Shown here: positions 2,979 through 28,554 of the stretch, piece by piece
How positions within the stretch are numbered: position 1 is the stretch's first letter
Layout of the letters: the number at the start of each line of letters is the position of its first letter
Origin: a virus
Reading direction: 5' to 3' (one strand)
Virus record (IMG/VR): IMGVR_UViG_3300036804_000178
Location: 1 to 37,834 of that record
Length of the DNA stretch: 37,834 nucleotides
Notes under the pieces: model-generated
What the model saw: the letters and a program-made list of their open reading frames with translations, nothing else
The model's database searches: none
What the model was told of the DNA's origin: nothing
Made by a program: the position numbers and the translations under genes

Positions 2979-4435
2979 GTCGCGCTCTTCACCACGTCGA
3001 TCCAGGCGCCGTTGAGCGTCGCCTCCCCCTGGCCCGACCACGTCAGGCGGAATACGCGGTCGCGCGCATAGCCGAGCCGGCGCCACTGGTATTGTGAGAT
3101 CGGTACCGACCAGGGATTGCTCTGCGCATCTTGCGTCAGCGGCGTGCCGAACGTGTTGCCGCCGTCGTCGGACCAGTCGAGCGTGATGCCGTCGGGCGAC
3201 AGCTGGCTGCCGTCGATCGCCGCGGTGAACCGGGGATAATGCACGCGGTTGCCGTCGTCGACGCTGTGCGGCCATGCGCGCTGGCGGATGATCGTGGTGC
3301 CCGCGTCGGTGTAGACCCGCGGGTGGATCTGCAGGATGCGCGGCCCGGTGCGGTCGCCGGCCAGCACCATGTTCTCGAAGGGGATCACCTGGGAAACTCC
3401 GGAGAGCCCGGCTGTGCAGTAAGGCAGCCAGGGCGTCGAGAGGTCGCCGTAAGTACGCTTGTGCCACATCTGCGTCGACGCATCGAACGCCCACCACGCG
3501 TTACCGGACGGGAAATAGATGCCAACCGTCTCGTGGCCGCCGATCTGGTAGGCCATGCCGATCGCGTCAGCGAGCGTGGGATAGGTGCTCCACTCGTTCT
3601 CGACGGCGAAGTTGGACACGCGTTGCGCGCCGAAGCCCTGCCCGCGCATCATCATGTTGCGACCCCAGCGGTCCTGGCTGAGCCAGTAGAGCGCGTTGTC
3701 TGCGATCACCACGCACATGAAGGAGACGCAGCCCTGCTGGAGGATGGAGGAGGGCATGCGCTGCCAGGGGAAGTCCGGCGCGCCTGAGTTGAACCAGATC
3801 TCCGCAGTCGAGTTGCCAAGGAGCCAGATGTTGTCGTGGAGAGCCGCGACGCAGACGAGATAATCGTTCCAACCTTCCTTGCCGGCGAAGTAGAGCGGGT
3901 TAAACGGTGTCAGCGCGTTGGATGTGGTTGTGTAGAAGGTCGGCGTGCCGGGCCAGTTGAAGATCAGGAATGTATCGATGTAGTCGACGCGCGAGCTGCC
4001 GTAGAATGCCGGGTCGCTGATCGGCTGCAGGCTGCCAGCCGTGAGGGCGGCAAGCGGCGCGTAGTAGCCGTTGGCCGTGCCGTCGACCAGCACCACATCC
4101 GTTTGATTGTCGCAGATCGACACGGGATAGCCGCTGTTGGAAGCGAGCGTGCCGAGCAGCACGTAGTCGCTATTGCCGCCGCCGTTCCACTTGATCACGG
4201 ACTGGCCGATGACCGCGATCACCGCGCCATTGGAAGCCTGATAGATGCCGCGCACGTAGCCCGAGAAAGTGCCGGTGTAGTCCGACTGCACGTAAAGCCC
4301 CGGCGCGGGATAATGCGAGACCGGGAACGGCGCGTCTTTCGGGTTCGGTTCCGGATATAAATTCACACAGGATTGAGCATTCGCTATAAGTCCCCTGGCC
4401 TCATACGCCCCCTGAATTAGTGGGAGTTGTGCCAT
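2975..4435 (-). CDS. P22 gp10-like tail hub / packaged DNA stabilisation protein
   Basis: A 486-residue protein close in length to P22 gp10 (472). The chosen ATG at 4435 gives MAQLPLIQGAYEARGLIANAQ, the characteristic beginning of this family (short strand, then SCVNLYPE and a YPAPGL turn). The body is a beta-rich repeat (propeller-like) sequence with many Trp, Tyr and Gly. In P22 this protein forms the hexameric tail hub under the portal/gp4 ring and keeps packaged DNA from leaking. Its place after a gp4-like gene supports the call. The open frame extends 33 codons upstream, but those residues are not family-like. The 133 bp before it (4436-4568) is one of the few gaps in this operon. Confidence 0.85.
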   Translation of the reverse strand: MAQLPLIQGAYEARGLIANAQSCVNLYPEPNPKDAPFPVSHYPAPGLYVQSDYTGTFSGYVRGIYQASNGAVIAVIGQSVIKWNGGGNSDYVLLGTLASNSGYPVSICDNQTDVVLVDGTANGYYAPLAALTAGSLQPISDPAFYGSSRVDYIDTFLIFNWPGTPTFYTTTSNALTPFNPLYFAGKEGWNDYLVCVAALHDNIWLLGNSTAEIWFNSGAPDFPWQRMPSSILQQGCVSFMCVVIADNALYWLSQDRWGRNMMMRGQGFGAQRVSNFAVENEWSTYPTLADAIGMAYQIGGHETVGIYFPSGNAWWAFDASTQMWHKRTYGDLSTPWLPYCTAGLSGVSQVIPFENMVLAGDRTGPRILQIHPRVYTDAGTTIIRQRAWPHSVDDGNRVHYPRFTAAIDGSQLSPDGITLDWSDDGGNTFGTPLTQDAQSNPWSVPISQYQWRRLGYARDRVFRLTWSGQGEATLNGAWIDVVKSAT

Positions 4436-6283: not shown

Positions 6284-6655
6284 CTACTTTCTCCCCTTGA
6301 GAGGTGCGGCTGCCTCGGCCTGCGTCATTTCGCCCCCGGGCAGCACGCCGCCTTCCTTCTCCGCCATGAACGCGATCAGCGCCTGTGACAGCGCCTTGGT
6401 GAAGCCCCGCTCGTCGAGCACCCGCTCGAGCACGCTGCGCAGCAGGAGGGTCGCCGGATCGTTGCCCGACATGGTCGGCGACGGCGTCGGCGGTCGCGCG
6501 CGGTGCGCCTCAGTCGGGCGCTGCCCCCAGCCCTGCAGGTGAAGGACGTTCTCTTTCGCCGCGTCCTCTACGACCTGCGAGCGCCCGTCCGGATGATACA
6601 CCATCCGCGGGTAGTCGTTGCGGCCTGCGTTGCCGGGGGTGACCGATGCACTCAT
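6284..6655 (-). CDS. Conserved head-neck region protein with DYPRMVYHPDG motif
   Basis: A 123-residue protein. The N-terminal part (NDYPRMVYHPDGRSQVVED, ending at GWGQRP near residue 47) is a motif I recognise from many phage proteins encoded near coat and neck genes; a related DYPRLVF phrase occurs near the N-terminus of the tail fibre of this phage. The C-terminal half is helical with acidic and hydrophobic residues (LLLRSVLERVLDERGFTKAL). It is coupled at its start to the homing-type nuclease gene (ATGA). Function unknown; a head-tail or decoration role is inferred. Confidence 0.65.
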   Translation of the reverse strand: MSASVTPGNAGRNDYPRMVYHPDGRSQVVEDAAKENVLHLQGWGQRPTEAHRARPPTPSPTMSGNDPATLLLRSVLERVLDERGFTKALSQALIAFMAEKEGGVLPGGEMTQAEAAAPLKGRK

Positions 6656-7284
6656 GGCATATCCGGCCGAATAGGCCGCGCTGGTAGAAGCAAACGACGT
6701 TCCGGCCAGCCGTATCTAATGCGCGAGAAGATCGTTGTTCGGCTCAGCCCAAACAGTTCAGCAGCTTTCGTAACGCTCATTTTGCCCTCCGGCGTGTCAA
6801 TAAGTCGTGCCGTTCGTCTGTTGCCGGCCTGCTCTTTCCGCGTCGCCCAACGACAGTTGGACGGTCTGTAGCCATCGTTGACGTTGATCCTCTCGAGCGT
6901 GAGACCTTCGCGCCAGGTCGGTCCCATGTCGGTCCAGAAGCGTTCGAAGCTGCTCCAACGCTTGCAGATCTTGATGCCGCGACCACCATACAAGTGGTAG
7001 CTGTCCGTGCCGGGCTTCTCGCAGCGCACCTTCATATGCACCCACGAGCGATAGGCCGAATGCCGGGCCATGCCGTGGACTTCGTTGCGTTTGCTCGCCG
7101 CCTCGCGCATCAGACAGCCACAGCTTCGGGAGCCGCCTCGCTTGAGGTCGCCCCCAAATACTGCGCGCTTCGTCCCGCAATCGCAGACGCAATGCCAGTA
7201 AAGCATTTTGCCCACTTGATGAGACAGCCCAACGACGGCCCACCGGGAGAAACGCTTGCCCGCAAGGTCGATAATCTGTGCCAC
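6652..7284 (-). CDS. Free-standing homing-type endonuclease (SCGCL/AP2-HNH group) with C-terminal HTH
   Basis: A 210-residue protein with a GTG start at 7284 preceded by GAGGGAAG. The N-terminal domain carries DLAGKRFSRWAVVG, then CVCDCGTKRAV and SRSCGCL, the zinc-type repeat of phage homing proteins. The middle holds YGGRGIKICKRWSSFERF, MGP, and LERINVNDGYRPSNCRWAT, the DNA-cleaving/binding core of this family. The C-terminal 40 residues (MSVTKAAELFGLSRTTIFSRI) form a helix-turn-helix like those of NUMOD domains. Such genes are mobile and usually dispensable; here it is inserted between the coat gene and the next neck gene, and it keeps coupling through an ATGA overlap. Family assignment is by motif recognition. 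Confidence 0.82.
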   Translation of the reverse strand: MAQIIDLAGKRFSRWAVVGLSHQVGKMLYWHCVCDCGTKRAVFGGDLKRGGSRSCGCLMREAASKRNEVHGMARHSAYRSWVHMKVRCEKPGTDSYHLYGGRGIKICKRWSSFERFWTDMGPTWREGLTLERINVNDGYRPSNCRWATRKEQAGNRRTARLIDTPEGKMSVTKAAELFGLSRTTIFSRIRYGWPERRLLLPARPIRPDMP

Positions 7285-7338: not shown

Positions 7339-8586
7339 TCATATTACGTCAGGCACGATGACGCACCACTCGGGCCGCACCATGAGCGAGCCGAAGAGGA
7401 TGTCGAGGCGGGTGATGAACTGATCGGACAGCACGGCGTAGTCGGTGATCATGCGCAGGCTGATGCCGTCGTAGGTCTCGCGTGCAACCTCATGCACGCC
7501 GCGCGGCAGCTCCAGCTCGGCGGTCGCCATCGTCACCGCCTCGGCGTAGTAGGCGAAGTTGCGGCGATAGACGGAAGATGCAGGCGTCACCACGGAGATT
7601 GCTGCGCCGTTCGCGGGACTTACATCCACCGTCTGGAACGGCACCGGGTTCCACGCGGGCGGCGGGCTGGCGTTGGTCGCGCCCGGCGTGATCGGCGGAT
7701 AGATCGGGATGCTGGTAGCCCCTGCGGCAACGTTGGCGGTGACGCAGAACTGGCAGAGCGTGTTGTTACTCTGATTCGTCACCCGGTTGACGCTGTTGAC
7801 GCCTGCTATGGTGATGATGTCGCCGGCAACCAGCGGCCCTGCAAGCGCTGTCGTGGTCAGCGCTGCACCGGTCTGGTTGGCGCCAGCGACGGTCGGCGCG
7901 GTGCCATAAGCCCCTGTTACGTGGTTGATGACGGTCTGGTCCATTCCCCAGTCGAACCCGAGCGTGTCGACTGTGATAGTGCCGCGGATATACTGGTCGG
8001 AGATCTTCACCTGCGGGTTGAACAGGCCCATCAGGCCGGTGACGGTGCGTGCCTGTGTCATCGGATCGAGCACGATGAAGCGGTCGTTGCGCGGCGCACC
8101 GTTCTGATCAAGCAATGCGCCGGCAGCAAGCCACGTGCCGGCAGTCGGGCTGATCATGTTGCTCGACGTATCGGTGTTCTGCGCAAAGTTGGAGGCGCTG
8201 TTGATGTTCTGCATGATGGCGGTGGCGACGCCGCCTGCCAGCTTGTTAACCGCTGGTGCCAGGATGCGCTGCGAGTAGTCGTCGAGAGAGAGCGCACGGT
8301 CTGCGGACGAGAACGACACGTCGACGCCCATCTGGGTGGCGAGGACGAGCGTTGTCATCTGCTCGTTGGTGCCTTGCGGCACGGCTGTCGGCCCGGTGCG
8401 CAGCACGTAATCGTTGGGCAGCCTGATGCGCAGCTGCTGGCCGATCTTGGCGCCCGAGCGACCGAATTCTGAGTCATACTGACGACCGATCGTGCGCAGG
8501 AACCAGTTGGAGTTACGGAAGAGGCGAACGGCCTCCCGCGTAATCATGTCGATGGTGAGCAGGGCGTTGCCTGTTGTGCCGCTCAT
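7339..8586 (-). CDS. Major capsid protein (P22 gp5-like)
   Basis: A 415-residue protein (P22 coat is 430). ATG at 8586 follows a strong ribosome site (GGGGAGG). The N-terminus (LLTIDMITREAVRLFRN) and the phrase MGVDVSFSSADRALSLDDYSQR followed by the long helix APAVNKLAGGVATAIMQNI match the N-arm and spine helix of the HK97 fold in P22-type coats. The phrase GPLVAGDIITIAGVNSVNR matches the P22 insertion domain region (MKRGDKISFAGVKFL). It lies directly after the scaffold gene. It assembles into the procapsid with the scaffold and is likely the most highly made late protein. A 347-bp leader with tandem repeats precedes it. Confidence 0.9.
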   Translation of the reverse strand: MSGTTGNALLTIDMITREAVRLFRNSNWFLRTIGRQYDSEFGRSGAKIGQQLRIRLPNDYVLRTGPTAVPQGTNEQMTTLVLATQMGVDVSFSSADRALSLDDYSQRILAPAVNKLAGGVATAIMQNINSASNFAQNTDTSSNMISPTAGTWLAAGALLDQNGAPRNDRFIVLDPMTQARTVTGLMGLFNPQVKISDQYIRGTITVDTLGFDWGMDQTVINHVTGAYGTAPTVAGANQTGAALTTTALAGPLVAGDIITIAGVNSVNRVTNQSNNTLCQFCVTANVAAGATSIPIYPPITPGATNASPPPAWNPVPFQTVDVSPANGAAISVVTPASSVYRRNFAYYAEAVTMATAELELPRGVHEVARETYDGISLRMITDYAVLSDQFITRLDILFGSLMVRPEWCVIVPDVI

Positions 8587-8933
8587 GTGGCGCGCCTCCC
8601 CAGCATTCACGGGCGGCAGCCACAAGAAGGGCGCGCAGGCTCGTGATGCTATGTGATCCGGTTGACGGGATCAGCGCGTTTCGGAGCCCGCGCAGACGGC
8701 CAGCATCGCTTGACCGAGCGAAGAGCGGCGCCCTGTTTCGGAGCCGGGGGCGACGGGCCGACATCACCCTACCCGGGCGAAGACGGGCGCCCCTGTTTCG
8801 GAGCCGGGGGCGACGGGCCAGCATCCCTCGCGAACAGGCACGGGGCTTGCGGTGGAGAAGCGCAGTTGCCGCGCCTCCCCACGAGGGAAGGCGGCAACGC
8901 TAGTCCAGTTGTGTTCTCTCTGTAAAGCGCAAC
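8587..8933. promoter_or_regulatory. 347-bp untranslated region between scaffold and coat genes
   Basis: No convincing gene is seen on either strand; open frames here have skewed Arg-rich translations created by the repeats. It contains three imperfect copies of a 57-60 bp unit (listed separately) and ends with the coat ribosome site. It may hold a separate promoter, a terminator/antiterminator or an mRNA-stabilising leader that lets coat be made in excess over scaffold. This is the longest gene-free stretch in the lytic arm. Confidence 0.55.
8678..8819. repeat. Three tandem imperfect copies of a ~60-bp repeat before the coat gene
   Basis: The core GTTTCGGAGCC begins at 8678, 8735 and 8795. 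The second and third copies share 29 identical bases (8731-8759 and 8791-8819) exactly 60 bp apart; the first copy is diverged. Between cores are related segments (GGGCGAAGACGGGCG, GAGCGAAGAGCGGCG). On the minus strand each of the last two cores can fold into a short hairpin (CGCCC...GGGCG) around a CGGCTCCGAAACA loop. Not CRISPR: the spacing unit is not made of unrelated spacers. Confidence 0.85.
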
Positions 8934-11062: not shown

Positions 11063-13462
11063 TCATGGTCTCGGGCCGGTCACGCCGCGGAACGGCGGGG
11101 CGCCGGGTGGTCGCTGGATCGGCGGACGCTGGGGCGAGAGCGACGCCATCTGGCCGCCGGTCAGTGCGGACGGTATCTGCGGCTGCCCCGCTCCGTTGAC
11201 CGGCGGGGGCGGTCCCGGCCCCTGCATCACGTTCTGCTGCTGCATCCTCTGCAGGTCGCCCATCGCCGCGTTGGAGACCGGCGCCATGCCGCTCTGCTTC
11301 AGCGCGTCCTGCACCATCTGGCCGATCAGCAGGCGCACCTCGGTCGCGTCGGCATACGGGCTGTCGGTATCCTTCATCGACAGCAGCGTACCAAGGCGCT
11401 TGGTGGTCGCCTCGTAGGCGTCGATGTCCTTTTGCTCGTCCTTGCCCTTGACCTTCATCTCGGCGACCGCCAGGCGCTCTGAAAGCAGCGCGACGTGCGC
11501 CTGCGCGCCCTGCAGTTGCTGCTGCATGGCCTGCTCCTGCGGCGTCGGACCGGTGCCCAGCGCCTGCGGCGGCACGAGGCGCTGCAGCCGCTCCGCCAGC
11601 TCCTCGGCCATCGGGAAGTCGGCTGCCTTGAACAAGAGGTCGCCGGCGACGTTCATCACCTGCGGCGCGGTGGCGATGATCTGGTGGAACGCCTCGAACG
11701 CTTGCTGCCGCTTGGTGGCGTAGGCCGGCCCCACGTCCGCCTGCACCTCGTACTTGCCCACAGTAGGGTTGAAGATGCGCGTCACGCTGGCGGTCAGCGC
11801 CTGCTGCGGCGTCGGCGGCGTGAGACCGCCTGCGGCCTGCGCCTGCGCCGGGTTGGGCACGTGCTGCAGCGCCTGGCGCTGGGTCGGGTCTAAGACCACG
11901 CGGTCGACGCTGCCATCTGGCGCAAGGATCTGCATAATGCGCCGCGTGTCATAGATCTTCGGGATGAGGTCGAGCAGGATGCGCCCGGTGAAGCGGATCG
12001 CGATCGCCAGGTTGTCGACGTAGTGATACGTGCTGTTGTCGCCCTGCCGCTGGCGCAGCGCGATCGCCTTGCCCGACTGCTCCGCCGGCTGCGGCTGGCC
12101 CATCGAGGGCTGGTACTGACCGCTGACCATGGCCATCTCGGACTGCGCGATCTGCATGCCCTGGATGTAGGCCTGCGGCATCTGCGGCGGCTGCTGGCGC
12201 TGCGGTGGCGGCAGCGGCTGGCCCTGATCATCACGCGCGTTATAGGGCAGCACGCTGTGGTTCTCGGTGTTCGCCGTGTCCCAGTAGCCCTGGAACGTCT
12301 CGATCGATTCCGCCGCGGCGACGTACGGGGTTTTGGATTGCAGCGCTACGCTCTCAACGCCGCTCGAGGTCCAGAAGTTATATATGCGCTGTGGATCTTT
12401 AAGGGCGCGCACATGGCCTTTGCGCTCGAGCTGGCCGTTGATGACCGTCTCCTCGCCCACCACGCGCACTAGCGGGATGTAGCGCCCCGGCCAGCGTGCC
12501 CTATCGACGATCTCCCCTCCCACGATCTTGAACCACTCGATGCGGTCCTCGCGCAGCGTGCGCTTACGTAAGCTCGCCGCGCGCATCTGCGCTAAGGCCT
12601 CGCCGCCCTCGACCTCGCTTTCGCGCATTGTCGAGCCGTCCATCAGCAGATGCAGCGTGTCGTCGCGCAGCGAGCGGCGGTAATACTCGGCGACCCTGAC
12701 GTGGTCCTCGGTCAGCCAGCCGCCGGGGATGACCTGGCCGGCGAACGTCGCCTGCGGAATGCGGTCTTTGTACTCGGGATACTTAGCTTCGAATATCTCA
12801 CGCGTGACGTCATCGACAACGAAGGCATAGAGCGCGTCGGAGCCGTCGACCTCCTGGATGTCGGGGTCCATGTAGACCGAGAGCGCGTCGCCGATGCGCT
12901 GGATGCGGCAGCCGATCTCGAATGCGTCGGGGCTTTCGTACTGCGTAATGACGCGCCACCAGCCGATGCCGCCCTGCACCTGGTGCTCGGTCGCCGTGTC
13001 GTACGCCACCTGCGCGCTGGAGATGTACTCGATGTGGCGGATGACGCCCTCGTAGACGTCGGCGCTGGCCTTGGTCGCCTCATCGCTCACCGGGTTGATG
13101 CGGATTTGCGGCTTGTTCTGCTTCGCGTCGTTGATCACCTGCAAGCAGTGCTGCCGGGTCTTGTTCACCGTCAGGCTGGGCCGGCGCGCCGCGTCGCGGT
13201 CGGCAAACATCGTGTCGGGCCACTGCCAGTGGTTGTCGCTGTCGCCGTTGGCGAACTTCACGTCGTCGGTGAACGCGCTGCGAAAGCGGCCTTCCCAATC
13301 GATGACGCGGCGGAAGCGCTCGCGCACCTCGAACAGCGTATCCTCGTCGGTCTCCTCGCGGTCGTCGCTGCGCTCGCGTTCACGCTCGCCGAAGCGGGGC
13401 CGGGGCTCGCTGCGGTTCGCCGTGCTGCGCATGTCGATATAGGCGTTGGCGAGGTCGCTCAT
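11063..13462 (-). CDS. Portal protein (P22 gp1-like)
   Basis: A 799-residue protein (P22 portal 725). The N-terminal third has the features of P22-type portals: a charged start, FRRVIDWEGRFRSAFTDDVKFANGD, NHWQWPD, the phrase RPSLTVNKTRQHCLQVINDAKQNKPQIRINP, and the YDTATEHQVQGGIGWWRVIT segment. The clip/stem/crown region runs through VIPGGWLTEDHVRVAEYYRR and the long C-terminal helices (QQLQGAQAHVALLSERLAV). A Gln/Pro-rich C-terminus ends the protein. It forms the dodecameric DNA channel at one vertex, binding terminase, then the gp4- and gp10-like proteins. ATG at 13462 overlaps the upstream stop (ATGA). Confidence 0.92.
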   Translation of the reverse strand: MSDLANAYIDMRSTANRSEPRPRFGERERERSDDREETDEDTLFEVRERFRRVIDWEGRFRSAFTDDVKFANGDSDNHWQWPDTMFADRDAARRPSLTVNKTRQHCLQVINDAKQNKPQIRINPVSDEATKASADVYEGVIRHIEYISSAQVAYDTATEHQVQGGIGWWRVITQYESPDAFEIGCRIQRIGDALSVYMDPDIQEVDGSDALYAFVVDDVTREIFEAKYPEYKDRIPQATFAGQVIPGGWLTEDHVRVAEYYRRSLRDDTLHLLMDGSTMRESEVEGGEALAQMRAASLRKRTLREDRIEWFKIVGGEIVDRARWPGRYIPLVRVVGEETVINGQLERKGHVRALKDPQRIYNFWTSSGVESVALQSKTPYVAAAESIETFQGYWDTANTENHSVLPYNARDDQGQPLPPPQRQQPPQMPQAYIQGMQIAQSEMAMVSGQYQPSMGQPQPAEQSGKAIALRQRQGDNSTYHYVDNLAIAIRFTGRILLDLIPKIYDTRRIMQILAPDGSVDRVVLDPTQRQALQHVPNPAQAQAAGGLTPPTPQQALTASVTRIFNPTVGKYEVQADVGPAYATKRQQAFEAFHQIIATAPQVMNVAGDLLFKAADFPMAEELAERLQRLVPPQALGTGPTPQEQAMQQQLQGAQAHVALLSERLAVAEMKVKGKDEQKDIDAYEATTKRLGTLLSMKDTDSPYADATEVRLLIGQMVQDALKQSGMAPVSNAAMGDLQRMQQQNVMQGPGPPPPVNGAGQPQIPSALTGGQMASLSPQRPPIQRPPGAPPFRGVTGPRP

Positions 13463-13710
13463 GCTATCGGGCCGTTCTCAAGCAGCGCGGTTAGAAAACT
13501 ATGAAGAAACCTAACATCTTCAAAAGTGAGGTCTACACTGTCCGCCCAAGGATCGCTCTCACGGGGCGCCATTGGATCGCTCTGCAAAAATATGGAAACT
13601 GGACGGTCAAGCCCCGGATCGGAATATAACACGGCCACCAGCTGAGCCCTGTTACCGTCACCGTCAGGCACATGCAGCACAAACTTAGGACCGTCGAATG
13701 AGACGCTCAT
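13459..13710 (-). CDS. Small acidic protein before portal, unknown
   Basis: An 83-residue acidic protein with overlapping ATGA junctions on both sides. It has a beta-rich first half (FDGPKFVLHVPDGDGNRAQL) and a helical end (FEDVRFLHSFLTALLENG). No family recognised and no membrane segment. It is part of the accessory block between terminase and portal. The nearby coupling indicates expression with the late genes. Confidence 0.6.
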   Translation of the reverse strand: MSVSFDGPKFVLHVPDGDGNRAQLVAVLYSDPGLDRPVSIFLQSDPMAPRESDPWADSVDLTFEDVRFLHSFLTALLENGPIA

Positions 13711-14180
13711 GCCGCGGCCTCGGCAGCATAGCGCTCGACGTATGCCGCCATCGCGCGCAGTCGCTCAGGGTCATCGCCAGCAAGTCCCAGCGCCGAGTTG
13801 CACTTGGCACAGAGCAGCCCACGGATGCGCCCTGTTGTATGGCAATGATCAATGACGCGCCCCTTGCCGAGACCCAGGTCGGCTACGCAGATCGCGCACC
13901 TGTTCTTCTGCGCCGCAACCATCGCGGCGAAAGTCTCGTCAGTGAGACCATATTTGCGAGCGCGGTGCTCCCGCGCAAATCGTGCCACATTATCTGCCTT
14001 GGTAGCCCGATAATGTTTTTTGCTTCTTGCCGCATTACAGTCTCGGCACTGTGACGCAAGGCCGTCCTTCGTGTTGCGCGCCACGGAGAATTGCTCCGCA
14101 GGCAAGCGCCGCTCACACAAGCTGCATGTCCGCAGGGTCTCGGGAAACAACGTCAACCGCTCGCGTGAAATCCGTTTCAT
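13707..14180 (-). CDS. Endonuclease VII-like HNH nuclease with N-terminal zinc ribbon
   Basis: A 157-residue protein. N-terminal residues 19-48 form a zinc ribbon (C19-x2-C22 ... C45-x2-C48). The C-terminal domain matches phage recombination endonuclease VII: YGLTDETFAAMVAAQ (77-91), C95-x2-C98, VIDHCHTTGRIRGLLC with the catalytic D111-H112, then C124-x2-C127-N128 and LGLAGDDPERLRAMAAYV. T4 endonuclease VII resolves branched DNA before and during packaging; similar proteins also act as homing-type nicking enzymes. Its location next to terminase and portal fits clearing of branched DNA for packaging, but mobile insertion is also possible. A second, diverged copy lies at 28066-28554. Confidence 0.88.
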   Translation of the reverse strand: MKRISRERLTLFPETLRTCSLCERRLPAEQFSVARNTKDGLASQCRDCNAARSKKHYRATKADNVARFAREHRARKYGLTDETFAAMVAAQKNRCAICVADLGLGKGRVIDHCHTTGRIRGLLCAKCNSALGLAGDDPERLRAMAAYVERYAAEAAA

Positions 14181-14584
14181 GCTGCAATCCGCAATGCATT
14201 CGTATTGAAGCCGTAAAAAGGCTGAATGTCACCAATCCGATAATCACATGTAAGTTCCTCACCGGCTTCGATGTCTCTCAGGGCATCATGCGTTAATTGC
14301 GGGTCAAAGAGAGGCGCTTTGACTGCAACATTGGGATCATCAAGGTGGTTCATAAATCGGGCATCGTCCGAACATAGTATGTAATACCCCGTCGACGGGC
14401 ACTGCTGCGCGTATTTGTCCAAGAACTCCGCATTGCACATCTCGGCGCAGAAGCTCGGGGGCAGCATGACGTCGAAGCAGGGCATAAAGCGCCAAATAGG
14501 CGTCCCAGCTGCGATGCGCTCCACGGCAAAGCAACCGATTCCCTCGATCGGCGACGGGCGGAGCAGGGTGCGCACCAGCAGCAT
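14177..14584 (-). CDS. SET-domain protein (putative protein lysine methyltransferase)
   Basis: A 135-residue single-domain SET protein; ATG at 14584 overlaps the upstream stop (TGATG), so the longer frame is rejected. Seen motifs in order: the N-terminal SET strand with EGIGCFAVERIAAGTPIWRF (14-33), the cofactor/catalytic RFMNHLDDPN (76-85, the NH..N signature), and IEAGEELTCDYR (105-116), where Y115 is the catalytic tyrosine. These are the residues that bind S-adenosylmethionine and the target lysine channel. There is no pre-SET zinc region. It is coupled to the zinc-binding protein upstream and the endonuclease VII gene downstream. Such proteins occur in some alphaproteobacterial phages; the target is unknown. 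Confidence 0.85.
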   Translation of the reverse strand: MLLVRTLLRPSPIEGIGCFAVERIAAGTPIWRFMPCFDVMLPPSFCAEMCNAEFLDKYAQQCPSTGYYILCSDDARFMNHLDDPNVAVKAPLFDPQLTHDALRDIEAGEELTCDYRIGDIQPFYGFNTNALRIAA

Positions 14585-14928
14585 CAGGCGCTGCCCTGCG
14601 GCGGGGCGAACGTGAGGTGCGCGTGCTGCGCGGCCAGCTCGGTAAGCTCGAGGCGGTTGTGACGGTTGCCGCAGCGGCGGCAGATCACGCCGGCACCCCA
14701 GCCGCGGGCCGACGTGTTGCACACCAGCGCCATGTAGGCCGGGCGGTGCGCGATCTCGCTGTCGCAGATGATGCAGTGCACCTTGTGCGTGCGCATCAGG
14801 TCGTGCGTATGAACGACGGCGCAGATGGCATAGCGCTGCTCCTCGGTGCCGTCAGGACCGAACGCCTTGCCGATCGCGGCCTGCAGTTCGCGCCGTGTGT
14901 GCAGGATCGCGTGGTAGGGACCGGTCAT
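14584..14928 (-). CDS. Small zinc-binding protein
   Basis: A 114-residue protein. ATG at 14928 overlaps the stop of the 66-residue gene (ATGA). Two CxxC pairs (CIIC near residue 52 and CRRC near residue 83) flank a short strand region (YMALVCNTSARGWGAGVI), making a treble-clef or ribbon-like zinc site. The N-terminal half is helical (ILHTRRELQAAIGKAFGP, then EQRYAICAVVHTHDLM). It could bind DNA, RNA or a protein partner. It sits between terminase and the SET gene, with TGATG coupling to the latter, so the two may act together; this is inference. Confidence 0.62.
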   Translation of the reverse strand: MTGPYHAILHTRRELQAAIGKAFGPDGTEEQRYAICAVVHTHDLMRTHKVHCIICDSEIAHRPAYMALVCNTSARGWGAGVICRRCGNRHNRLELTELAAQHAHLTFAPPQGSA

Positions 14929-15125
14929 GCCCCGAGCCGCTTCTGCAGCTCGGCGTGGATGCGGTCCATCTCGGCCTCGAGCCACAAGAGGCCGCGGTGC
15001 GGCGCCTGCTTGCGGGCCTCGCGCAGCCTGCCGTAGGCCCAGGTGAGCTGGTTGAGCATAGTCGCATCGCTCGTCACCACAGGCCGCGTCATCTCGGTGT
15101 CGATGTCGTAGATGTCCACGCTCAT
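14925..15125 (-). CDS. Small helical protein after terminase
   Basis: A 66-residue protein coupled by ATGA overlaps to terminase upstream and to the zinc protein downstream. It has an acidic N-terminus (MSVDIYDIDTEM) and one long amphipathic helix pair (TMLNQLTWAYGRLREARK, LEAEMDRIHAELQKRLG). I recognise no family. Small helical proteins in this place may help packaging, but nothing proves it. Confidence 0.6.
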   Translation of the reverse strand: MSVDIYDIDTEMTRPVVTSDATMLNQLTWAYGRLREARKQAPHRGLLWLEAEMDRIHAELQKRLGA

Positions 15126-16417
15126 GCCCCGAGCCAGCCCTGGCCGCGCAGGGGCGGCGTCGAACGCCGCGGCGGGATCTTGGAGGGGTAGGAGGCGCGA
15201 CGGGCCTCCTGCATCGCTACAGCGACGTAGCGCAGCGCGTCGGAGCCGTGGCTGGCGGCGTCGTGGAGCGGATTACGGCTGAACTGTCCAGACGTTGGAT
15301 CGACATCGTAGCGATAATGCCGCAGCGCCTGCAGACCGTCTGCACATCGATCGCGATCAAACCATAGGGTCGGGAAGAGCGTGCGCGCTGCGTTAATGCC
15401 ATCGTGGACTGACAGGCGGGGCACGATACGAACACGCCAGCCAGCACTTCTTGCCATTTCCTCAATGCTGCGCCCTGTGCCAAGCGATTTTGCTGTCGCG
15501 TCATGGGGCAACCACATGGTGTGATAGGTGTAAGCGCGGCGCTGCAGCTCCTGCATGTAGTCTGCGAAGGGTCGCTGACTGTCCTGCAGGTAGTCGACGC
15601 AGCGCACCTCGCCGGCAATGTGCTGCACGCACCAGATCGCTGTCGTGTCAGACCAGCCGAGGTCGAAGTAGACGTTGACGGGCTTGGTGGGATCGTACGC
15701 CACCGGGCCGATGCGGCCCTCCTCCTGCGCCTCGCGTAGCTCCTTCGCGTAGATCGCGCCGTCAAGCGTGTAGCGGCAGTGGCCGCCGTAGATGTGCGCG
15801 TAGGCGTCGGGGTCTTTCGCCTGGAGGTCGAGCATCTCCTTGCGCAGCACCTCGGGGAAGAAAGGGTTATCGCGCCAGGTGACGTGACGTACGACAGCAT
15901 CTGCGGGGGGCGAGACGACGAAGCGCTGGTATGTGTTGTCGGTGTCCAGCTCGGGGTTGAACGATACCCAGATCTCGCTGTTGTCCTTGCGGATGCTGGG
16001 GATCAGCACTTCCCAGCTGCGGTTGAGGACGGTGGCGGCCTCCTCGACCCAGCAGATGTCGACGCCCTCGAGGCTGCGCACCTTCTGCACGTTCTGCCGC
16101 ATGCCGGCGTAGATGAACTCGCTGCCGTTGGCGTGACGGATACCTGATTCGCCGATGATGAACTGATCGTCGCGCTCGAGGCCGAGGGCGCGGATGCGGG
16201 TGGCGAGCAGCTCGTGCACGCTCTCGCGGATGGAGTTCATGCTTTCGCGGGCGCAGAGCACGCGCAGCGGCTTCTCGGCGCAACGGATGGCAAGGACGGT
16301 GGCGAAGGACCAGGACTTGGCGCTGCCTCTGCCGCCGTGGAAGACCTTGTAGCGATGCGGATCGAGCAGCGGGCCGAACGCTTCGGGTATGTCGACGCGG
16401 ACGAAGGTGCCCGGCAT
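15122..16417 (-). CDS. terL: Terminase large subunit (packaging ATPase/nuclease)
   Basis: A 431-residue protein of the usual terminase length. The ATPase domain has Walker A GGRGSAKS (28-35), an arginine-rich following strand (VLCARESMNSIRESV), and Walker B VDICWVEEA (119-127) with the catalytic Glu after the Asp. The motif WVSFNPELDTD follows (coupling). The C-terminal RNase H-like nuclease has the first Asp in VYFDLGWSDTTAIW (near 250) and the last acidic cluster in HDAASHGSDALRYVAVAM (near 387-404). It cuts and pumps DNA through the portal. It follows terS (TGATG overlap). It belongs to the Terminase_3 style; whether headful (pac) cutting is used is not seen. Confidence 0.95.
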   Translation of the reverse strand: MPGTFVRVDIPEAFGPLLDPHRYKVFHGGRGSAKSWSFATVLAIRCAEKPLRVLCARESMNSIRESVHELLATRIRALGLERDDQFIIGESGIRHANGSEFIYAGMRQNVQKVRSLEGVDICWVEEAATVLNRSWEVLIPSIRKDNSEIWVSFNPELDTDNTYQRFVVSPPADAVVRHVTWRDNPFFPEVLRKEMLDLQAKDPDAYAHIYGGHCRYTLDGAIYAKELREAQEEGRIGPVAYDPTKPVNVYFDLGWSDTTAIWCVQHIAGEVRCVDYLQDSQRPFADYMQELQRRAYTYHTMWLPHDATAKSLGTGRSIEEMARSAGWRVRIVPRLSVHDGINAARTLFPTLWFDRDRCADGLQALRHYRYDVDPTSGQFSRNPLHDAASHGSDALRYVAVAMQEARRASYPSKIPPRRSTPPLRGQGWLGA

Positions 16418-27973: not shown

Positions 27974-27994
27974 GACTCTTCTCCCCTAGAATGC

Positions 27995-28030
27995 GGGACG
28001 ACAGCGGCTGTCAAGAGCCACTGTCGTCCC
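27995..28030. promoter_or_regulatory. Strong hairpin between divergent accessory genes
   Basis: Inverted repeat: GGGACGACAG (27995-28004) pairs with CTGTCGTCCC (28021-28030), then one C/A mismatch, four more pairs (GGCT/AGCC) and a six-base loop. No T run follows either way. On the minus strand the loop side includes TTGACA, a perfect -35 box, but the matching -10 is poor. It could be an operator, a leader hairpin or a bidirectional terminator. Confidence 0.6.
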
Positions 28031-28065
28031 TGACCACGATCCTTGCGCTGAAGGACCAATGGCTG

Positions 28066-28554
28066 ATGGCATATAAGGACAAAGCAAAAGAACTTGCGAC
28101 CTCCCGAGCATGGTGGGCCAAGCAGCCGGCAGAAAAGAAGGCCGAATACAAGCAACGATATCGCGCCAAGCAACTGGCATTAAGACCCCCGAAGCTGCCG
28201 AAATGCTGGAAGTTTAAAGGGCGCGAGACCGAGTATGGACGCGAGTGGCGGTTGGCACATCCTGAGCAAGTCGCCAAACGCAAGCTGCGCGAACGCGCCA
28301 ACCGGGAACTCCGCTACGCAAGTCTCGCTGGGCGTCCGAAGCCGGATGTTTGCGACATCTGCTTCAAGAAGATTGGCAACATCGTCTACGATCACTGCCA
28401 CAAGCGTGGCCATTTCCGTGGGTTCCTGTGCGACCGCTGCAATACCGTCCTCGGCCTCATGGAAGACAATGACACGTTGCTTGTCGCGATGGCCGCATAT
28501 CTCAAGCACAATCGGATAAACCATTCGGCCCAATTCGCACTGCCAGGGATTTAG
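28066..28554 (+). CDS. Second endonuclease VII-like HNH protein
   Basis: A 162-residue protein from ATG 28066; an in-frame ATG at 27991 would add 25 residues but runs through the hairpin, so the shorter start is preferred. The N-terminal half is very basic (AEYKQRYRAKQLALRPPKLPK, VAKRKLRERANREL). The C-terminal domain has C-x2-C (CDIC), IVYDHCHKRGHFRGFLC with D-H, then C-x2-C-N (CDRCN) and LGLMEDNDTLLVAMAAYLK, the endonuclease VII pattern. It lacks the first zinc ribbon of the 13.7-14.2 kb copy. Placed beyond attP, it is likely a mobile or accessory nuclease. Confidence 0.82.
   Translation: MAYKDKAKELATSRAWWAKQPAEKKAEYKQRYRAKQLALRPPKLPKCWKFKGRETEYGREWRLAHPEQVAKRKLRERANRELRYASLAGRPKPDVCDICFKKIGNIVYDHCHKRGHFRGFLCDRCNTVLGLMEDNDTLLVAMAAYLKHNRINHSAQFALPGI

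Follow-up and report, generated by a model that had tools for sequence, protein, structure and literature searches.

Bacterial SET genes have already been reviewed (PMC3980110), and in the archaeon Methanosarcina the enzyme Go1-SET acts in vitro on MC1-alpha, a DNA-binding protein, which it methylates probably at Lys37 (PMC3980110, PMC6776556). In viruses, chlorovirus PBCV-1 vSET serves a eukaryotic host, with histone H3K27 as its target (PMC10117894). Methyl-lysines are also reported on the major capsid, portal and small terminase proteins of phages, some of them retained in free virions; the methylation is seen in virions and infected cells of phages with no known methyltransferase, so that host enzymes can methylate virion proteins (PMC13288928). 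No functional study of a phage SET protein was found in the literature searched. The window analysed here is a 37.8-kb viral sequence from IMG/VR (37,834 nucleotides) that carries a single SET gene (E 2.7e-14 in a scan of the whole record), located in the packaging region among the following features.

7339..8595, minus strand: P22-type coat protein, which fixes the phage type (Pfam P22_CoatProtein, 5.3e-34)
11063..13462, minus strand: P22-like portal, bordering the accessory slot on the right (Pfam P22_portal, 2.6e-163)
13459..13710, minus strand: 83-aa protein, end of the low-GC block (GC3 0.52, lowest of 47 genes)
13459..14584, minus strand: low-GC block of SET, endonuclease VII and 83-aa genes (GC3 0.62, 0.66 and 0.52)
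13707..14180, minus strand: endonuclease VII gene, downstream of SET (Pfam Endonuclease_7, 3.4e-22; PHROG 2633, 3.6e-39)
14177..14584, minus strand: predicted gene for a 135-aa SET-domain protein lysine methyltransferase (Pfam SET, E 1.1e-12; AlphaFold2 model; fold matches)
14240..14263, minus strand: GEELTCDY codons, residues 108–115, with the catalytic tyrosine Y115 (E110 and Y115 invariant in 74 relatives)
14345..14359, minus strand: RFMNH codons, residues 76–80, SAM/active-site motif (R76, F77, N79 and H80 invariant in 74 relatives)
14584..14928, minus strand: 114-aa protein encoded upstream of SET, containing two CxxC pairs (TGATG overlap)
14925..15125, minus strand: 66-aa ORF between the terminase and the CxxC protein (GC3 0.93; overlaps both neighbours)
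15122..16417, minus strand: large terminase subunit (TerL), left border of the accessory slot (Pfam Terminase_3, 1.8e-41)

The SET ORF extends from an ATG at 14584–14582 to a stop at 14179–14177. Pfam SET (PF00856) matches its product with 48.7 bits (cut-off 22.4), the alignment spanning residues 15–115 and covering 104 of the 105 profile positions, while PHROGs and NCBIfam return no match. Third codon positions are the most divergent (0.50–0.67) and synonymous sites are near saturation; thus the ORF is not a chance frame. The preliminary description, which had placed here a 135-residue SET protein with RFMNHLDDPN (residues 76–85) and GEELTCDY signatures, is borne out by both the ORF and the profile search. 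The stop of the CxxC-protein gene and the SET start share TGATG at 14586–14582, and similarly the SET stop and the start of the endonuclease VII gene share ATGA at 14180–14177. These overlaps suggest that translation of SET may be coupled to that of both neighbours and that the gene may be expressed as part of an operon.

The window protein retains every invariant column of a 74-sequence alignment built from relatives at genomic loci (S11, G17, D73, R76, F77, N79, H80, E110 and Y115). The NH motif is therefore intact and so is the catalytic tyrosine, as had been proposed. The AlphaFold2 model (mean pLDDT 85.3, pTM 0.78) shows an overall SET fold and superposes on solved SET enzymes with Z scores of 11–12, namely EZH2 (Z 11.9 over 116 residues, 2.6 Å), MLL1 (Z 11.5), chlorovirus vSET 3kma (Z 11.4 over 103 residues, 2.5 Å) and ASH1L; Foldseek also matches the model to SET folds. 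Among the three closest phage copies, those of the window and of the viral loci L194 and L012, dN is 0.33–0.43, and in both comparisons involving the window gene synonymous substitution has reached or nearly reached saturation. Judged from these substitutions, the phage copies are under purifying selection. The window SET is a real enzyme that is very likely active.

The portal, coat and terminase, together with an integrase, a repressor-like HTH gene and RecT, define the carrier as a P22-like podovirus, and the last three genes indicate that it is probably temperate. The position of SET between terminase and portal and the endonuclease VII that follows it agree with the preliminary description. 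The 'zinc protein' said to precede it was partly recovered: the 114-aa product does contain two CxxC pairs and its gene does overlap SET, but no family matches it in Pfam or PHROGs. It is weakly similar to proteins in the slots of L194 and L195. The 83-aa protein likewise has no Pfam or PHROGs match. Elsewhere in the window, low GC3 like that of the SET block is displayed by a second endonuclease VII gene (27991–28554, Pfam 2.4e-14) and by an HTH/endonuclease-like gene (6652–7284). An ORF at 1391–2719 shows by eye sulfotransferase-like (ALPRSRTYW) and acetyltransferase-like stretches, and Pfam returned no match for its 1391–2419 part.

The slot between TerL and portal holds five genes in the window. 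Among 69 distant relatives with both border genes, at about 50–57% TerL identity, the portal begins within about 40 bases of the TerL end in 66, and the other three have one extra gene or a gene-sized gap; the cultured relative PAE2 also has no SET in the slot. In six closer relatives with portals 65–73% identical (L194, L195, L197, L198, L205 and L206) the slot is filled with varied small genes, and only L194 has a SET gene there, 62% identical to that of the window and overlapping the next gene. No SET was found anywhere in the records of L195, L197, L198 and L206, nor by HMM scan in L205, a 4-kb fragment. One small protein with the pattern MWEDVY..DxMxRMxxDGWLYRN recurs in these slots (L194:4730-4897, L195:5237-5650, L198:4991-5434 and L205:2958-3263) and was not seen in that of the window. 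The large terminase of L194 (L194:1116-3506, 796 aa) carries, by eye, an intein-like insert directly after the Walker A motif, starting KCLVPGTRV and ending VTHNS.

The SET, endonuclease VII and 83-aa genes of the window form a block of foreign codon composition, with GC3 values of 0.52–0.66 against 0.82–0.93 for the packaging genes and a gene median of 0.79; the 66-aa and CxxC genes look native by composition. This low-GC block is probably a late acquisition. The L194 SET has a GC3 of 0.88, which is the composition of the L194 genome. Because SET is absent from the slot of most relatives and has foreign GC3, it is accessory and was recently acquired or exchanged in the window. It thus shares with morons both absence from the same locus in most relatives and foreign composition; membership of the strict moron class is not claimed, since the consensus scan found no promoter of its own for the gene. 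That scan revealed no promoter-like site on the SET coding strand, although its consensus may not be the host's.

Stand-alone SET relatives were detected by one motif scan on at least 156 contigs in a set of 84,980 species genomes of bacteria and archaea, including Hyphomicrobium, Inquilinus, Mesorhizobium, Gemmatimonadota, Patescibacteria, Verrucomicrobiota, Spirochaetes and Methanosarcina. The window protein aligns over its full length with these small bacterial and archaeal proteins, is up to 50% identical to bacterial ones (tblastn matches) and belongs to the same stand-alone family as two Methanosarcina SETs (L039 and L043). The view that SET enzymes are mostly eukaryotic, held in the preliminary description, is out of date, since stand-alone SETs are widespread in bacteria and archaea (PMC3980110) and scattered copies occur in phages. 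The commonest neighbour of the bacterial relatives is a second SET protein. In 16 bacterial or archaeal loci (L033, L065, L088, L098 and L104 among them) a second, longer SET protein lies near the stand-alone one; the pairs are often adjacent, convergent in Hyphomicrobium and on the same strand in some Patescibacteria, which suggests a paired system. A conserved bacterial neighbour as the substrate was rejected, the other recurrent neighbours reflecting local synteny, mostly of Hyphomicrobium and Mesorhizobium.

In phages, the motif scan returned 16 IMG/VR loci, and GenBank phages gave one clear match, in a 636-kb metagenomic phage. More divergent SET-like genes occur in Menderavirus ('similar to SET domain'), next to purM in cyanophages, and near terL in the environmental podovirus MW202744 (annotated vSET-like), and in BFVD several proteins of uncultured Caudovirales phages go under the name 'SET domain containing protein'. 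Phage copies, earlier described as few, are thus scattered and often unannotated, uncommon but not unknown. One and the same SET fragment, without the middle of the domain, occurs in two viral contigs of 65 and 436 kb (L005:8001-8189 and L006:8001-8189) and looks like a decayed gene, and one 307-kb phage contig (L021 record, G012) has two SET genes. Phage and cellular SETs are interleaved in a quick tree of 98 rows (10 label changes) and in a careful tree of 49 rows (8 label changes), where all phage rows were joined in none of 200 bootstrap trees examined. The starred branches, taken alone, may be compatible with a single origin of the phage genes.

The window SET groups with that of L194 (support 99/93), and L012 completes a three-member phage-only subclade (support 100/99) whose members share CDYRIGDxxPF, at the C-terminus in the window protein. 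A scan of IMG/VR for the trio found no further member. Alphaproteobacteria make up most of the neighbouring cellular group, whose placement is weakly supported (88/65). The L012 phage is unrelated to that of the window and has a Head-tail_con portal. Its TerL is divided into two ORFs, 587–1696 and 3032–3787, which align to residues 8–247 and 241–478 of the TerL of an EBPR podovirus, and the 1.3-kb insert that splits them (L012:1697-3031) carries SET together with small ORFs. An intron around this cassette was rejected, no Rfam match being found up to E 1. All three SET genes thus occupy the interval from the ATPase region of TerL to the portal, although the two backbones involved are unrelated. 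This placement, in three cases only, fits a packaging-linked role and is its best support. The new observation is a phage-only SET subclade in the packaging module of two unrelated backbones, its copies under purifying selection.

The reading preferred here, with a probability of roughly 0.55, is that the product is an active lysine N-methyltransferase of the stand-alone SET type, encoded by accessory cargo of the phage, and that it methylates a packaging-stage protein late in infection. The gene would have been acquired horizontally, its source being the small SET proteins of prokaryotes, and would have entered the variable TerL-portal slot together with the endonuclease VII and 83-aa genes. 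It would presumably be translated alongside the packaging genes late in infection, and its product would use S-adenosylmethionine to methylate lysines on a protein that is there when the DNA is packaged. The first choice of substrate would be a component of the packaging machinery or of the virion, for example the portal, and the second a host DNA-bound protein. The step from a late operon to a virion substrate, already taken in the preliminary description, is a plausible one. Portal residues K69, K502 and K570 are lysines only in the SET bearers (window and L194) and not in L195, L197, L198 or L206, and this count is the highest among all 15 two-versus-four splits, the others giving 0–1; with so few genomes and a post hoc comparison, these lysines are a lead and not evidence. 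No such lysines were found in coat and scaffold when the same relatives were compared. It is rather doubtful that methylation of a packaging or virion protein by a SET lineage specific to phages, for instance at portal lysines, forms a regulated step in assembly. Nor would a packaging role be general, because other phage SET lineages are found beside a DNA polymerase of family B, further replication-type genes or genes of the baseplate; different SETs may therefore have different targets.

The replication-type surroundings of those other lineages also favour a possible alternative, in which the enzyme would methylate a host protein, most likely a nucleoid-associated one, and so aid the takeover of DNA or transcription. 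The activity of Go1-SET on MC1-alpha (PMC3980110, PMC6776556) and the membership of L039 and L043 in the same family point the same way. The subclade of the window, however, resides in the packaging module, where it overlaps genes of that module, and a nucleoid protein gene was not seen among the recurrent neighbours of the bacterial relatives. Action on a host protein in the lysogen, as a lysogenic-conversion gene, would suit a phage with integrase, repressor-like HTH gene and RecT, but is very improbable for a SET that overlaps packaging-module genes on the late strand, where no promoter-like site was found with a consensus that may not be the host's.

The TerL-portal slot may simply tolerate insertions, and chance entry into such a permissive place, as transient cargo without benefit to the phage, would account for the foreign GC3, for the absence of SET from most relatives and for the low GC3 of the neighbouring endonuclease VII itself. 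This explanation is unlikely given the intact catalytic residues, the purifying selection between phage copies and the fact that SET recurs at this slot in L194 and within the same module of L012. If methylation of a packaging or virion protein is correct, the window would hold the first case in which a phage encodes a protein lysine methyltransferase that acts on its virion. Phage protein methylation is newly reported, with no phage enzyme to account for it (PMC13288928); where a phage keeps a compact lysine methyltransferase of its own in the packaging region, deletion of that one gene could test whether and why phages methylate proteins.

The architecture of the window protein is that of Go1-SET of Methanosarcina mazei (AAM32541) and the prokaryotic stand-alone SETs, a lone small SET domain. 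These relatives measure about 125–140 aa and have their N-terminal pattern and motifs in common with the window protein; the Methanosarcina relatives align with it over the full length, Go1-SET itself lying outside the comparison. Unlike Go1-SET, whose substrate MC1-alpha is an archaeal protein, the window protein falls in a phage-only clade with the C-terminal CDYRIGDxxPF. Chlorovirus vSET is similarly a small viral stand-alone SET of the same fold, but at 20% identity there is no sign of close kinship. The SET-like proteins of uncultured Caudovirales, cyanophages, Menderavirus and MW202744 are also borne by tailed phages. In contrast to the window SET, they are divergent in sequence, occupy other genomic contexts and are mostly unnamed.
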